A stretch of 64,000 bases of DNA from Blastocystis sp. Blastoise. Lineage: Eukaryota; Sar; Bigyra; Opalinata; Blastocystidae. The notes below the pieces were generated by a model that made no database searches, was not told the DNA's origin, and saw only the letters and a list, made by a program, of their open reading frames with translations. This document shows, piece by piece, positions 6,567 through 59,016 of the stretch. Each line of letters begins with the position of its first letter. Within the stretch, counting starts at the first letter, position 1. The stretch spans positions 559,501 through 623,500 of the forward strand of contig JBBPEB010000027.1 in assembly GCA_039096225.1 (NCBI GenBank), in the 5' to 3' direction. Position numbers and translations under genes: made by a program.

Positions 6567-6714
6567 AAGTATCGATTGTAAATCAAGAAAAAGATAATTA
6601 AACCCATATATATATATATATATCTTATATACTTATATATATATACTCAATAATACTAAGAATATATTGAAAAAATAATAAAAAATAAATATATAAAGAA
6701 TTGGCGTAATTCAC

Positions 6715-6840
6715 ACTCAGCATAGTAGAAGGTGTTTTCTTTAGAGTATGCATAGTAGACCAGGCCAATAGGCGGGTAGCCTATTGGCCATACTATGCTG
6801 AGCATGAATTTTTTCGTCATACTATGCTGAGCATAAATTA
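6715..6840. repeat. Nested palindromic element (MITE- or hairpin-like)
   Basis: A perfect 11-bp stem, GGCCAATAGGC / GCCTATTGGCC (6763-6773 and 6779-6789), closes a 5-base loop. It is flanked by inverted copies of CTCAGCATAGTA (left, 6716-6727) and TACTATGCTGAG (right, 6791-6802 and again at 6819-6830). A partial left copy, GCATAGTAGA, occurs at 6750. The GC content of the stem is far above its surroundings. The element sits just past the 3' end of the PPR gene. It could be a short terminal-inverted-repeat transposon remnant or a structured 3' element. Confidence 0.7.
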
Positions 6841-6896
6841 TCCCTAAAGAACTAGAATTAAAAAATGATTATAACTATATATAAATATTATTATAT

Positions 6897-9422
6897 TTAA
6901 GATAAAGAGAATGATTGGTTAATTCGTTGTAAACACGAATAAGAAGAACGTTTTATATAGGATTGACATAAGTTTTTACAATTATTATTTATATATACAT
7001 TAAAAAATGGATATGAAAATTCAATACATTTTTGTATATTTGTTGGGAGATTTTTTAAATTTGGTTTTGGACAATTTTCATCAATTTGAATTGAATCTGG
7101 TTTATTAGGAACTGAAAATGTGAAGAATTGATATTCAGATGTAGCTGATTTATTCTTATTATTATTTTTATTTTGTATATTTTGAAAGAATACACTAGGA
7201 GATATAGATATAAAATAAGAAAGAGGAATATTATTTTGTTTAATCATATCAACTAATAAAGATATTGTACATGTATTATTTTGTTCTATCGCTAAATCTA
7301 ATATATCATTATAATTTCTCCAAGGTATTGAAATACCTTTAGAATTCATAGTATTTAATATAGAATATGAAATATCTAAATATTTCTTTGAACAATAAAA
7401 AGATAATAAATAACTATAAGCATTATTTGTTAATGTATAATTATTATTCTTAAATAAATCAAGATAAGTTGAAGTTGTTTTCGATTCTAAAGAGAATTGA
7501 TATAATAATGCATATATAGATAAATCTATAGGAATATTCTTCTCTATAACTTCTTCAATAAGTTTTTTCGTTTGTATTTCATCCTTATATATATAGGATG
7601 CATATATATATGTAGAATAATCACAGGGTTTTAAAGATATTTTTTTCTTTTTCATTAATTGATATATACTATCTGCTTTTTCTAATTTTCCATAAATAGC
7701 AAAAAATCTTAATAATAATTGATAAGATTCATCAGAAATATTCAGTTTTTTATTTTCAATTTGTGTATATAAAGATTCTAAATACAAAATATCACCCGTT
7801 TTTCCAATACATTGAATATAAGATTGAATCAGTTCGGGATGAAATTGAGTGAATTGTGTAGAGAATGGATATAATGAAAAAACATAATAAGAACAATAAA
7901 TTTGATTTGCGTCTGAACATTTATTCAGTATATTTAAGCTAGTATCAGGAGATAGTTGAATATTTTTTTGTTTTAAGTATTGTAATATAGTTATTAATTG
8001 ATCCCAATTTTTTGTTTCTGTTAATGATAAAGATAAACAATCGAACATATTGATAGACCAATAATTTATGCTTTCCTTTGCTTCTTTATAAGAAGATAAT
8101 ATTTGTTTATGATTATTTGTAAGAAGACAATTCCATAAATAGATTTCATATAATTTGCAATAAGAAGATAAGCAATCATAATCATTTCCTGTAGGAGAAA
8201 CAACAGAAGAAGCAGGAATACTATTTTGAATATAATTCCCTTGTTTATAAATAGAAGAAGAAGAGGAAGAAATAGATTTTTTCCAATATTTAGGAATAAG
8301 AAATGAAAAGAATGAATGATTATTAGAGATCGTTTTCTTTTGAAATAGAGAAGAAGAAGAAGAAGTAGAATTTCTCAGTGATTTCGGTTCTAGGATGTTC
8401 TTTAAGGAAAGTGAAGAATCATCATATAAGTGTATATTTGTATTAATAGGAACTGACGTATCTAATATAGATATTGAATCTCCACTCATTTCAGAAAATT
8501 TATTATTATTATTGTTATTATTATTATTGTTATTGTTATTGTTATTGTTATTGTTATTATTATTCATATTATTATTCATATTATTATTAACATTATTATT
8601 CATATTATTATTATTCATATTATTCATATTATTATTATTCATATTATTCACATCAGAAGAAGACAATAAATAATTACTATTAGAAGATAAAAATAATGAT
8701 GAGTTTTCTTTTCTTCGTTGTAATAAGAATAATTCATTAAATGTATTTGGAAGAAAGAAATCATTAAAGAATAAATTAACTTCATCATATTCATTATTTG
8801 ATAATTGTATATATAATTGTGCTAAAGTAAAAGAAGAGGATAAAGAAGAAGACATATTTGTTATTTGTAATTTATAACGTTTTAATAAACTTTCAGCAAT
8901 TTCACAATCATCTAAACATATTAATACATAAGCAATAGGTTCAATATAATTCTTTTGTTTTTCAAAAGGAAGATTTTCAATATAACGAATAAAATCGTAA
9001 AGTTGAAACAATTGTTGAGTTTGTAAGAAATACATCATTAAATTAGAGAAATTTCGATATTGATATTTTGAATCCATTGTAATCATGGTTTTCAAATCAT
9101 TCAAAGCCTCTTCTACATGACCATCACTTAACGATTGCTGAAAAGATTCATTAATTTCTTCTTCTTTTTCACTCAGTGCAGTATCTATACCATCTTTGAA
9201 AAATATTTTCTTTAGAACGTAAGATATAGTTGAGAAGCTTCGTTTCGAATCAGAAGAATAATGAGATTTTAATAGGTGAATCTGCTTGTTCTCATATATA
9301 TTTTTAGTACATATTGTAATACATCGAAGATATTGATATGGATGATTTGGAAAATGATGAGAACAATTCCGAAGAACTGAATACGAAAAATAAAATGTAG
9401 AATTTTTCAATAAGTTCATCAT
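6897..9422 (-). CDS. Mitochondrial-type PPR protein with Asn insert
   Basis: One uninterrupted exon of 841 codons; the start is the first ATG of an ATG-ATG pair. The N-terminus is basic, Ser/Tyr/Arg-rich and acid-poor for about 65 residues, as in a mitochondrial presequence. From about residue 90 and again from about 430 to 760 the protein is built of paired helices of about 35 residues with PPR hallmarks, for example SYQLLLRFFAIYGKLEKADS and YSYLLSFYCSKKYLDISYSI. PPR proteins bind organellar RNA one base per repeat and act in processing, stability or translation. A low-complexity MNNN/poly-Asn insert with adjoining Ser runs occupies about residues 260-390 and probably forms a disordered loop. 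This is the only long intronless gene in the window. Its RNA target cannot be read from the sequence. Confidence 0.85.
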   Translation of the reverse strand: MMNLLKNSTFYFSYSVLRNCSHHFPNHPYQYLRCITICTKNIYENKQIHLLKSHYSSDSKRSFSTISYVLKKIFFKDGIDTALSEKEEEINESFQQSLSDGHVEEALNDLKTMITMDSKYQYRNFSNLMMYFLQTQQLFQLYDFIRYIENLPFEKQKNYIEPIAYVLICLDDCEIAESLLKRYKLQITNMSSSLSSSFTLAQLYIQLSNNEYDEVNLFFNDFFLPNTFNELFLLQRRKENSSLFLSSNSNYLLSSSDVNNMNNNNMNNMNNNNMNNNVNNNMNNNMNNNNNNNNNNNNNNNNNNNNNKFSEMSGDSISILDTSVPINTNIHLYDDSSLSLKNILEPKSLRNSTSSSSSLFQKKTISNNHSFFSFLIPKYWKKSISSSSSSIYKQGNYIQNSIPASSVVSPTGNDYDCLSSYCKLYEIYLWNCLLTNNHKQILSSYKEAKESINYWSINMFDCLSLSLTETKNWDQLITILQYLKQKNIQLSPDTSLNILNKCSDANQIYCSYYVFSLYPFSTQFTQFHPELIQSYIQCIGKTGDILYLESLYTQIENKKLNISDESYQLLLRFFAIYGKLEKADSIYQLMKKKKISLKPCDYSTYIYASYIYKDEIQTKKLIEEVIEKNIPIDLSIYALLYQFSLESKTTSTYLDLFKNNNYTLTNNAYSYLLSFYCSKKYLDISYSILNTMNSKGISIPWRNYNDILDLAIEQNNTCTISLLVDMIKQNNIPLSYFISISPSVFFQNIQNKNNNKNKSATSEYQFFTFSVPNKPDSIQIDENCPKPNLKNLPTNIQKCIEFSYPFFNVYINNNCKNLCQSYIKRSSYSCLQRINQSFSLS

Positions 9423-9428
9423 AACCAA

Positions 9429-23255: not shown

Positions 23256-26117
23256 ATGAAATTTGTGCTTATCTGCGTACTTGTACTTGTTGTACTTGCA
23301 TCCCCATCTGTGGATTGTCAATCCAAACCTCAAGCTGATTATCCTTACTGTAATCCTGAGCTTTCTATTGATGAAAGAGTAGATGATCTCGTTGATAGAA
23401 TGACTTTAGATGAAGCTATCTATCAAACATGGAGTGTTGCCCCTGGTATTGAACGTCTTGGTATGAAAGCTTATAATTGGAGAGCTAATTGTCTTCATGG
23501 TTGGTCTGCTTCTGGTGGTAAATGGTATGATTTAAAGTGGAATGCTTTCCCTGCTCCTATTGGTCTTGGTGCTATGTTTGATCTTCCTCTTGTATATAAT
23601 ATTTATTTATTTCTGTTTATAAATTTATTATTTTAGTATGAAAATAAGTATTATTCTATTATATATATATATATAGACTAAAAAGGTTGCTATAGTTACT
23701 GGTAATGAAGGTCGTGCTCTTCATAATATTCTTCTTGAAAAGAATAATGGATCTATTCTTGAAGCTACTTCTCTTAACTGTTTCTCTCCTAATGTTAATT
23801 TATTCAGAGATCCTAGGTAGATTTATTGTGTTTATGTTTATTATTATTATGTTATTATTATTATTATTATTATTATGTTTATTATAATAAATATATATAT
23901 AGATGGGGTAGAGGTCAAGAAACCTTTGGTGAAGATCCTTATTTAATTGCTATGATTGGTGCTGCATATACCGAAGGATTACAAGTATATATATATATAT
24001 ATATTATTATTATTATTATGATTATTATTATTATTATTATTATTATTAATATATAGCAAAAGAGTGGTAAATATTACAACGTTGCTGCTTGTGCTAAACA
24101 TTATGCTGTTCATAGTGGTCCTGATAATACTCGTTTATCTTTTGTTGCTAAATCTACTGAACATGATTTATATGATACTTATTTCCCTCAATTTGAAACT
24201 CAAGCTCGTTGTGTCAATGTCCTTCAAATGATGCCTGCTTATAGTGGTATTGAAACTAAAGAATCACCTGAACGATCTCCTGATGCTGCTAATAAATTCC
24301 TTCTTCAAACGACTCTAAGAGAACGTTGGGAAAGACCTGATATTAATATTATTAGTGATAACGGTGGTGTTGAATTTACTAAGACACAACAACATTATGT
24401 CGATAATTTTGTTGATAGTGCTGCTATATGCATGAATGCTTCTACTGATCTTGATCTTGGTAATGATAAAATATACCCTAAATATTTACCTGATGCTGTT
24501 AAACAGAATAAAACGAAAGAAAGTACTATTAGAGAATCTGTTAAGAGAAGTATGAAATTAAGAATGTTAGTCGGTGATTTTGATCCTAAGGATAAAGTTG
24601 AATATCAAAATTGGGGCTATGAACATCTTAATACTCAAGAATATAAAGATATTAATCTTCTTTCTACTCAAAAATCTATTGTTTTATCTCGTAATCGTGT
24701 TGGTGTTCTTCCTACTGATTTTAAACAATATAAACAAATTGGTATTGTTGGTAATAATGCTGATAATGGTAAAGCTTATCTTTCTAATTATGAAGGTATT
24801 CCTGATCATATTTATACTGTTAAAGAATCGATGGAGACTTATTGTAAGGAGAATGGTCTACCTGCTCCCCTCTATGCTCCTGGTTGTATCGATAGTCAAT
24901 GTATTCGTGAATCATACTTCCCCGCGGTTATGGAAATGGCTGAGAAAGTTGATGTTGTTATTGCTGTATATTATTATGTTTATTATTATTATGTTTATTA
25001 TTATTATAATTATTATAATATTATATTATATTATTATTATTATTATATTATATTATATTATATATATATATAGGTAATGGGTTTAGATATGAATATTGAA
25101 GGAGAAAGTCATGATAGAGTCATGAAGACTTGTAAAGGTATATACTAATATCTCTCCTATTATATATATTATATATATATGTTATTTATTTTTATTTAGA
25201 TATTCATAATTCTATATATATATATATATTCATGCTTGTAAAGATCAACCTACTGAACTTCTTGGATTACCCGGTTGTCAGGGCGATTTAGTCAAACAAT
25301 TACATGATATGGGAAAGACTGTTATTTTAGTCCTTGTACATGGTGCTCCTATTACTGTTCCTAATTATGCTGATACTGTTATTGATGCTTTCTATCCTGG
25401 TCAATTTGGTGGTCAAGCTATTGTTGATGTTATTACTGGTAAATATAATCCTGCTGGCCGTCTTCCTTATACTATTCTTAAAGAAGATAAAAATATGCTT
25501 GGATTTGATGTATATATATTATATTTATTATTATTATATTATTATTATATTATTATTATTATTATTATTATTATATTATTATTATTATATAGGATTATGA
25601 CTTTGTGGATCTTCCCGGTCGTACTTATAAGTATTACAGAGGAGAAATACAATTCCCCTTCGGACATGGTCTCTCTTATTCTACTTTCAATTATAATAAT
25701 ATGAAGATATCTGCTTCTACTCTTAAGCCATGTAAATCTCTTACTCTTTCTGTTACTGTTCACAATAATGGTCCTTTTGATGGTGATGAAGTTATTCAAG
25801 TATATGTTTCTACTCCTTCTGCTTCTTTTGTTGTTCCTATTAGACAATTATATGGTTTCAGTCGTGTGTTTATTAAGAATGGTGATGATTATACATTTGA
25901 ATATACATTAGATGCTCTTTTAATGTCTGTTGTGAATGATGATGGTAAACGAGTTGTTTTACCTGGTGACTATAGCGTTTATATTGGTGGTGGTCAACCT
26001 GGTTATTCCAGTGGTATTTCTTCTCAATTCTCTGTTGAAGGTTCTGTTCCTACTCTTATTGATGAATGTCCTAAGGAAGTTCCTCGTTATTTCTGTGCTG
26101 ATTTTGCTAATATGTAA
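23256..26117 (+). CDS. Secreted GH3 beta-glycosidase (xylosidase-like)
   Basis: Exons 23256-23591, 23677-23816, 23903-23984, 24057-24965, 25074-25137, 25253-25509 and 25593-26117; 770 aa. A clear signal peptide (KFVLICVLVLVVLASPSVDC) opens the protein. The N-terminal TIM-barrel shows ERVDDLVDRMTLDE, DPRWGRGQETFGEDP, then CAKHYAVHSG. The nucleophile Asp is in INIISDNGG, residue about 287. The C-terminal alpha/beta sandwich carries MGLDMNIEGESHDR, the acid/base region of the plant and fungal beta-xylosidase branch, and GQFGGQAIVDVITGKYNPAGRLP. A fibronectin-III-like domain follows from FPFGHGLSYSTF. Likely extracellular or lysosomal breakdown of xylan, arabinan or beta-glucan oligosaccharides. 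The exact sugar cannot be told. It stands alone, with no other carbohydrate-active genes beside it. Confidence 0.93.
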
Positions 26118-30719: not shown

Positions 30720-35703
<4,984 letters not shown>

Positions 35704-45740: not shown

Positions 45741-51740
<6,000 letters not shown>

Positions 51741-51898
51741 TCTTAATAATATTATTTAACAAAAATAACACTAAAGAAAAAATACTTCTCCTTTTTTTTG
51801 ACTAAAGTTTTATTCCTGTTTAAATTACGCTATAACCTAGTTGACGTGATATAATGTAAAAATATATATTTTTTTGTTTATTCTTATATATATTATAG

Positions 51899-53973
<2,075 letters not shown>

Positions 53974-57515: not shown

Positions 57516-57654
57516 TTATGCTTTATTCAAGTCAAATATTACAACTATATCTATACAGAACTCTGAATAATATACAAAAATTCAATTATCAAAATGTTAT
57601 TTTCCCAAGAATATTCAGATATTGATTTTGAAAAAAAATGGGTACAAGACCGAC

Positions 57655-59008
57655 TTGGCCAGACTAAATTGCGCTATTAACTGTTCTCGGTTTCTGGCGG
57701 ATACTACTAACCAGAAAGATAACAAAAAAAAGCCAGTGAAAAAATTGGTTTTATCACGATTATAAAGTAGTATTCTTTTGATCATTTTTCAAAAATAAAA
57801 ATCGAGGTACAAAAATCGTTTTTTGCTATTTTAAGGGCAAAGACGTTTGAATATAAAAGAAATTATATTTTTATTTATACATATATGTTATTTGAATTAT
57901 AAGAAAAGTGTGAAATATATCATAACATTAAAAACAAAGAGATATTAAGAGAAAGTCAATAATCATTAAAATAATAAGAATATAGAGAAAAAAAGTTAAT
58001 AAACCTGGGAATGCTAAAAAAATTCTTTTTTTTCCATATTATTTAATTCTCTATTTTAGATTAATAACAGAAAAAAACTATTTAAATTTAATTAATTCAG
58101 ATATTATTATATGTATATATTTGTGGAAAAATATCATTTAAAGCTATAAACGTTATTTTCTAAGAATCAATATAATTATGTTTATAAAATATGACTATTC
58201 AAGCATAATTAACAAGATGTGTATTTTTAAAATATTTATTTAAAACAAATTGCAACTAAAAAACTATTTTGTGTATGTGAATATAATGTGAATTAATAAA
58301 TGGCAACATTTACGTGTTTAAATCGTTGTTTAAGAAACACTGAGACATTTCTTAGGAATAAAACCGATTTATTTCTCATTTTGAGTATTCAGAAAACACG
58401 GACTTTTTAATAAAATATTTTAATATATGTAGTCTTAGTAATAATACTTTGCTGATTATACACGAATAATGCATTTTATAAACATAATTGTATTGATTCT
58501 TAGAAAATAACGTTTATAGCTTTAAATGATATTTTTCCACAAATATATACATATAATAATATCTGAATTAATTAAATTTAAATAGTTTTTTTCTGTTATT
58601 AATCTAAAATAGAGAATTAAATAATATGGAAAAAAAAGAATTTTTTTAGCATTCCCAGGTTTATTAACTTTTTTTCTCTATAATTTTACTTTTTTAATGA
58701 TTATAGACTTTTCTTAATATCTCATTTATTTTTAATGTTATGATTCATATCTCACTTTTCTTATAATTTAAATAACATATATATATAAATAAAAATATAA
58801 TTTCTTTTATATTCAAATAATTTTGCCCTTAAAATAGCAAAAAACGTGTTTTTGTACCTCGATTTTTTGTTTTTAAAAAATTGTCAGAAATAACTACTTT
58901 ATAATCGTGATAAGATCGATTTTTTCACTGCGTTTTTTTTGTCATTTTCTGGTTTAAAATATCCGCCAGAAACCGAGAACAGTTAATAGCGCAATTTAGT
59001 CTGGCCAA
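57655..59008. mobile_element. Foldback (long-TIR) DNA transposon with 8-bp TSD
   Basis: A 1354-bp element whose ends are inverted copies of TTGGCCAGACTAAATTGCGC. The arms run inward for about 530-550 bp each (57655 to about 58200 and about 58460 to 59008), with roughly 90% identity by eye, enclosing about 260 bp of unrelated A/T DNA. The identical 8-mer AGACCGAC flanks both ends directly (57647-57654 and 59009-59016), a perfect target-site duplication. No transposase frame is present, so the element is non-autonomous. An 8-bp duplication fits hAT or P superfamilies, while long arms recall foldback Mutator-like elements (normally 9-11 bp). It lies upstream of PAF1, in noncoding DNA. Confidence 0.93.
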
Positions 59009-59016
59009 AGACCGAC

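Follow-up and report, generated by a model that had tools for sequence, protein, structure and literature searches.

Evidence for a non-autonomous foldback-type transposon family with 8-bp target duplications in Blastocystis sp. Blastoise

Introduction

Two long inverted arms lie near one end of a 64,000-nucleotide stretch of Blastocystis sp. Blastoise DNA (hereafter the window). Do they belong to a transposon that has moved, what could have moved it, and does the similarity of its arms date its activity? The original prediction, made from the bare sequence, described a complete non-autonomous foldback transposon that could not be assigned to a superfamily. As set out below, the locus very probably belongs to a family of non-autonomous foldback-type DNA transposons that has at least seven complete copies in this organism, is moved in trans and has arms that exchange changes. 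Mutator-like elements are the first suspect for its superfamily.

The element in the window

The element spans 57655-59008 (1,354 bp) and is bordered by an exact 8-bp duplication that fixes its boundaries, as had been proposed (Table 1). The chance of one such 8-mer pair matching is about 1.4e-4, computed for the local base composition. The left terminus of the element reads TTGGCCAGACTAAATTGCGC, and the right terminus is the reverse complement of this sequence. The arms, anticipated at roughly 530-550 bp, were measured at 536 bp each and thus make up 2 x 536 of the 1,354 bp, as in foldback elements; they are 89.6% identical over 539 aligned columns. Classical Drosophila FB elements contain tandem subrepeats within their arms; repeat analysis of 57655-59008 revealed no tandem repeat family. 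Positions 57655-57666 include GGCCAGAC, the 8-mer that the P element of Drosophila classically prefers as its target; this is probably a coincidence.

A total of 21 open frames of at least 30 aa touch the element. The longest (64 aa) enters from the flank, while the longest lying wholly within is 51 aa; in the second type of copy described below, the longest inner frame is 75 aa. As no coding capacity was seen, the element must be moved in trans. The remainder of the window includes pieces of several host genes (Table 1). For a PPR protein of the window, no homologue was found at E <= 0.001.

Table 1. Coordinates of the transposon parts and of host gene pieces in the window.
Feature	Position	Strand	Basis
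Target-site duplication, left copy, AGACCGAC, 8 bp	57647..57654	+	Exact match to right copy
Inverted arm, left, 536 bp, first bases TTGGCCAGACTAAATTGCGC	57655..58190	+	Inverted-repeat and arm alignment
Middle, 282 bp, non-coding	58191..58472	.	Judged by open frames
Inverted arm, right, 536 bp, last bases GCGCAATTTAGTCTGGCCAA	58473..59008	-	Inverted-repeat and arm alignment
Target-site duplication, right copy, AGACCGAC, 8 bp	59009..59016	+	Exact match to left copy
PPR protein, host gene piece	6897-9428		
Glycosyl hydrolase family 3, host gene piece	24057-25073		
Protein kinase, host gene piece	32517-33104		
Med14, host gene piece	51285-51752		
DUF1604 (presumably G-patch type), host gene piece	51899-52702		
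EMP70, host gene piece	61853-62712		

Copies in the genome and their duplications

The assembly comprises 34 contigs and 33.3 Mb. One of its hAT transposases matches two NCBI proteins of Blastocystis sp. Blastoise (Stramenopiles, Opalinata, Blastocystidae) at 93% and 86% identity; a Dictyostelium origin had also been considered, but a myosin search, in which no control matched either, gave no match. Allowing up to three mismatches, the 20-mer at the element's terminus occurs 15 times in the assembly, and its reversed control pattern never. Fourteen are the ends of seven complete elements and the last is a lone end. Five complete copies, on contigs C1, C2 (the window), C3, C4 and C29, form a first type of 1,353-1,355 bp. 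These are mutually 98-100% identical: a pairwise alignment of 1,357 columns contains 2-20 mismatches, and gaps in 0-5 columns. The second type comprises two complete copies of 1,398 bp (C3:1662034 and C19:556667) with ends TTGGCCAGACTATTTTGCGC and perfectly matched arms that take up 2 x 450 bp, again a foldback structure. The lone end (C4:1395988) is a fragment of this second type. Between the types, about 55-56% of the aligned arm columns are shared, visibly most at the tips. Among the best-scored candidates of whole-element genome searches, only that fragment and a weak 57-bp match appeared beyond the seven copies.

Each complete copy carries an exact 8-bp duplication, and every one is different (AAATGAAC, AGACCGAC, GGACACAA, TATTGACC, GAAATAAG, CGCAAAAG and AAACACGA). 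The duplications are richer in GC than their flanks (23/56 bases vs 664/2,800, p = 0.003), with seven sites being too few for a target motif. The flanks are unrelated among the copies, and the boundaries agree to the base. Exact inverted ends together with a variable duplication of fixed 8-bp length, found in all seven, characterise a non-autonomous TIR transposon.

Empty sites and insertion

For each of the seven copies, the joined flanks were compared with the whole genome of this one assembly. The joined C3:1389874 site matches continuously at C3:1346593-1346809, and the joined C1:116491 site at C34:856494-856713. At the first sister locus 301/301 locally aligned bases are identical, and at the second 293/294; both contain the 8-mer once and lack TTGGCCAG. 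Therefore, each of these two insertions went into one of a pair of duplicate loci and doubled 8 bp of the target there. No near-identical second place was found for the other five sites, the window's included, in the joined-flank search, in which seven weaker matches (71-89% identity) all involve AT-rich DNA flanking the copies on C4 and C29.

The exact, differing duplications at seven of seven copies and the two sister loci with a single 8-mer show that the element inserted with an 8-bp duplication. Given the perfect match of its empty sister site, the C3:1389874 insertion is recent relative to base change. A separate observation is that the C1 copy lies within DNA duplicated on C34 (C1:116381-119480 and C34:854676-856713), and that a hAT-like gene is present in both duplicates, at a distance of about 1 kb from where the element inserted.

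The duplicated DNA that surrounds two of the seven sites might instead hint at an immobile inverted duplication that spread through segmental duplication. Yet the duplicates at exactly those two sites lack the element, and the copies combine unrelated flanks with base-identical boundaries, which leaves this explanation with almost no probability. Transposition of a non-autonomous foldback element, as originally predicted, is thus borne out by the further copies, their variable duplications and the empty sites. The prediction had held that an 8-mer invariant between copies, or a single-copy repeat with no empty sites in related strains, would refute it; what was found, within one genome, is seven copies, seven different 8-mers and two empty sites.

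Arms that change together

Within the five first-type copies, the two arms are 89.6-93.7% identical, while in each second-type copy the 450-bp arms match each other throughout. The two second-type copies of this assembly differ from one another at nine sites, eight in the arms and one in the middle. Those in the arms fall into four pairs: each change in one arm has its complement at the mirrored position of the other. If the arms changed independently, such pairing would have a probability of about 7e-12, by a simple count in which mutation hot spots are disregarded. The arms of the first type are mosaic. On C3, C4 and C29, the left arm has bases of the right type at about alignment columns 258-327, while on C1 it is the right arm that has bases of the left type, at about columns 319-327.

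The simplest account is that the arms exchange sequence, either through gene conversion or through repair that uses the opposite arm as template. The mirrored pairs and the mosaic tracts are seen directly; the route by which changes may pass from arm to arm, and its timing before or after insertion, we infer. Could the arms be alike merely through the youth of the element, with no exchange? The copies are indeed very similar to one another. However, first-type arms differ by 6-10% within a copy, as against at most about 1.5% between copies, and all four second-type arm changes are mirrored, so that youth by itself is a very improbable explanation.

Arm exchange has a further consequence. Because it keeps the arms alike, arm similarity within a copy is no clock and does not date activity, whereas copy-to-copy identity does. 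The original prediction had read the similar arms as a sign of recent activity or of gene conversion between them: the second part is supported, and the first, as a measure of age, is not.

Search for a transposase

In the proposed mechanism, a transposase encoded elsewhere would bind the TTGGCCAGACTA..TTGCGC ends, and a presumed staggered cut at the target, followed by insertion, would produce the observed 8-bp duplication. A transposase gene sharing the element's ends, which the original prediction had proposed to look for, was not found in this assembly by terminal-pattern, whole-element or distance searches; the partner may be diverged or lost. As no such gene was found, mobilisation in trans is what we infer.

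Allowing one mismatch, TTGGCCAGACTA occurs at 56 places, of which 15 are exact and the other 41 contain the mismatch, and its reversed control at 61. The control is as frequent, and one-mismatch places alone are therefore uninformative. Among 15 of the 41 that were read, ten belong to an unrelated MITE (L068, L069, L071, L072, L075, L077, L078, L079, L081 and L082), and the remaining five (L070, L073, L074, L076 and L080) lack the following TTGCGC. The pattern TTGGCCAGACTANNTTGCGC, with up to three mismatches, finds 35 places, namely the same 15 element ends and 20 MITE places, and its control none.

These 56 TTGGCCAGACTA-like places were compared by distance with 28 MULE places and 59 hAT places (32 by domain, 27 by transposase query). 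Only three come within 10 kb: a hAT nested in the truncated second-type copy, the hAT-like gene that lies 1 kb beyond the copy on C1, and a hAT at 7.9 kb from a 12-mer with one mismatch.

Is the family Mutator-like?

The long arms put Mutator-like elements first among the suspects. In the excerpts of the literature used here, MULEs typically have arms longer than 100 bp and 8-10-bp duplications, with 8 or 9 bp in Muta1 (PMC5225508), and foldback elements mostly seem to be Mutator (PMC4079207). Arms of 536 bp and an 8-bp duplication fall within these bounds (PMC5225508). The genome also offers possible sources: the MULE domain has 28 matches, 19 of them stop-free with open frames of more than 400 aa or more-or-less intact copies. 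On the other hand, all 28 are more than 10 kb away from any TTGGCCAGACTA-like end, the nearest being at 10.3 kb, a comparison of distance only.

The MITE mentioned above provides a second comparison. It measures 142 bp, has ends GGCGTAATTCACACTCAGCATAGTA.. and occurs at 20 genome places by pattern, including about 6705-6846 of the window (L068); its G-rich ends suggest a Mutator-like identity. Duplication length, taken as the longest match over small border shifts, is 9-11 bp in seven of nine copies and 7 and 8 bp in the other two (the ten copies listed above without L071, the right end of which differs). This Mutator-looking element thus contrasts with the exactly 8 bp in all seven copies of the foldback family. 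The MITE also has an inner palindrome, GGCCAATAGGC..GCCTATTGGCC. Overall, a MULE foldback family moved by a MULE transposase of this genome is a tentative assignment, possible and preferred, without being probable.

Is the family moved by another 8-bp-duplicating superfamily?

Known superfamilies that duplicate 8 bp include hAT, P, Merlin, Sola1 and Zisupton. The strict 8-bp duplication in seven of seven copies suits any of these, and hATs are common in this genome. Their dimerisation domain, PF05699, has 32 matches, and one hAT transposase query has 59, many of them mere pieces. At seven of 15 loci examined, near-full-length pairs of TAGAGCGGTTC ends lie 2.9-3.0 kb apart; an exact 8-bp duplication borders two of the seven (ATCTTATC and ATAAGGTA), but not the other five.

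The family shares the 8-bp duplication of hATs, but not their ends. The hAT terminal-base consensus is C/T-A-A/G-N-G, and the hATs delimited here end in TAGAG (family F, and families A and C as read from their right ends) or CAGGG (left end of family E), as opposed to TTGGC in the element. No genome match was found to the P-type RNase H domain or to the Zisupton KDZ domain; both results carry little weight, as no control matched either. Movement by one of these superfamilies is rather unlikely, though it merits consideration after the Mutator-like reading.

One specific hAT partner was considered and rejected. The lone second-type end at C4:1395988 is 1 kb from a hAT-like gene, but the element of this gene is TAGAG-ended, and it directly follows 181 bp of the truncated second-type copy. 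A TTGGCC end, with up to five mismatches, was found at none of 14 other loci of that hAT family (L019-L032, about 1.5 kb of flank each).

Other features of the hAT elements were also observed. One hAT-like element, which begins with CAGGG on its left and exceeds 7.2 kb, has two copies (L083 from 2211 and L084 from 1884; C8 and C22) with 99.9% identity over 7,292 bp, and 19 genome places have the same domain score; it is unusually long and apparently very recent. Oppositely oriented pieces of one hAT transposase family are separated by only a few kb at C31:1011329-1016562, C22:905455-912305, C26:689715-692449, C13:52397-55543 and C24:401488-406894, as if they had inserted into or beside each other head to head.

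The combination of TTGGCC ends and a strict 8-bp duplication sets the family apart from the hAT ends of this genome that were examined and from the 142-bp MITE. It might mark an undescribed Blastocystis transposase lineage, the foldback derivatives of which would keep their arms identical through hairpin or arm-templated repair within the life cycle, although this is improbable. In summary, a MULE ranks first as the superfamily, another known 8-bp superfamily follows, and the remainder falls to unknown or undescribed groups. After these comparisons of ends, duplications and transposases, the family is still unassigned, as the original prediction had left it.

Discussion

This kind of element is already known, while the family itself is new to the literature searched. 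Among the matches listed (title and abstract opening), searches of the Blastocystis literature on foldback or DNA transposons brought up no such element, and a search for TTGGCCAGAC nothing on transposons. In the available excerpts of the Blastocystis subtype 7 genome paper, transposons are named once, under repeat masking.

Several described systems are similar, as judged from excerpts of the respective papers. For example, the Mutator/foldback family Tm1, from root-knot nematodes, also has long inverted arms, which within one element are 93.15% alike on average, as well as MITE-like members that do not code, duplications of 8-10 bp and a paralogous empty site (PMC3169594). It differs in its mostly 9-bp duplications, composite arms of variable length and transposase-coding members (PMC3169594), compared with exactly 8 bp in seven of seven copies here, where a coding member was not found. 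Tetris, a Drosophila virilis foldback, is likewise non-autonomous with long inverted arms, an autonomous partner that was not found and a merely inferred superfamily, but it has 8-10-bp duplications and internal tandem repeats (PMC4079207), which were not seen in the window element.

Galileo of Drosophila, from the P superfamily, has foldback-like long inverted arms as well, but mostly 7-bp duplications and a P-type transposase (PMC4168063), a match to which was not found here in an uncontrolled search. Muta1, an active MULE of Aedes aegypti, resembles the family by description, rather than by comparison of ends, in its 8- or 9-bp duplications with no sequence preference, but encodes its own transposase (PMC5225508).

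These findings document a recently mobile foldback family in Blastocystis. Two near-perfect empty sites, together with copies that differ by few bases, allow a direct reading of how long arms evolve, with changes in one arm recurring in its partner. Chromosomal inversions have arisen where copies of the foldback-like Galileo recombined ectopically, according to the excerpted account (PMC4168063), and the foldback family described here may for that reason be a source of rearrangements in Blastocystis too.
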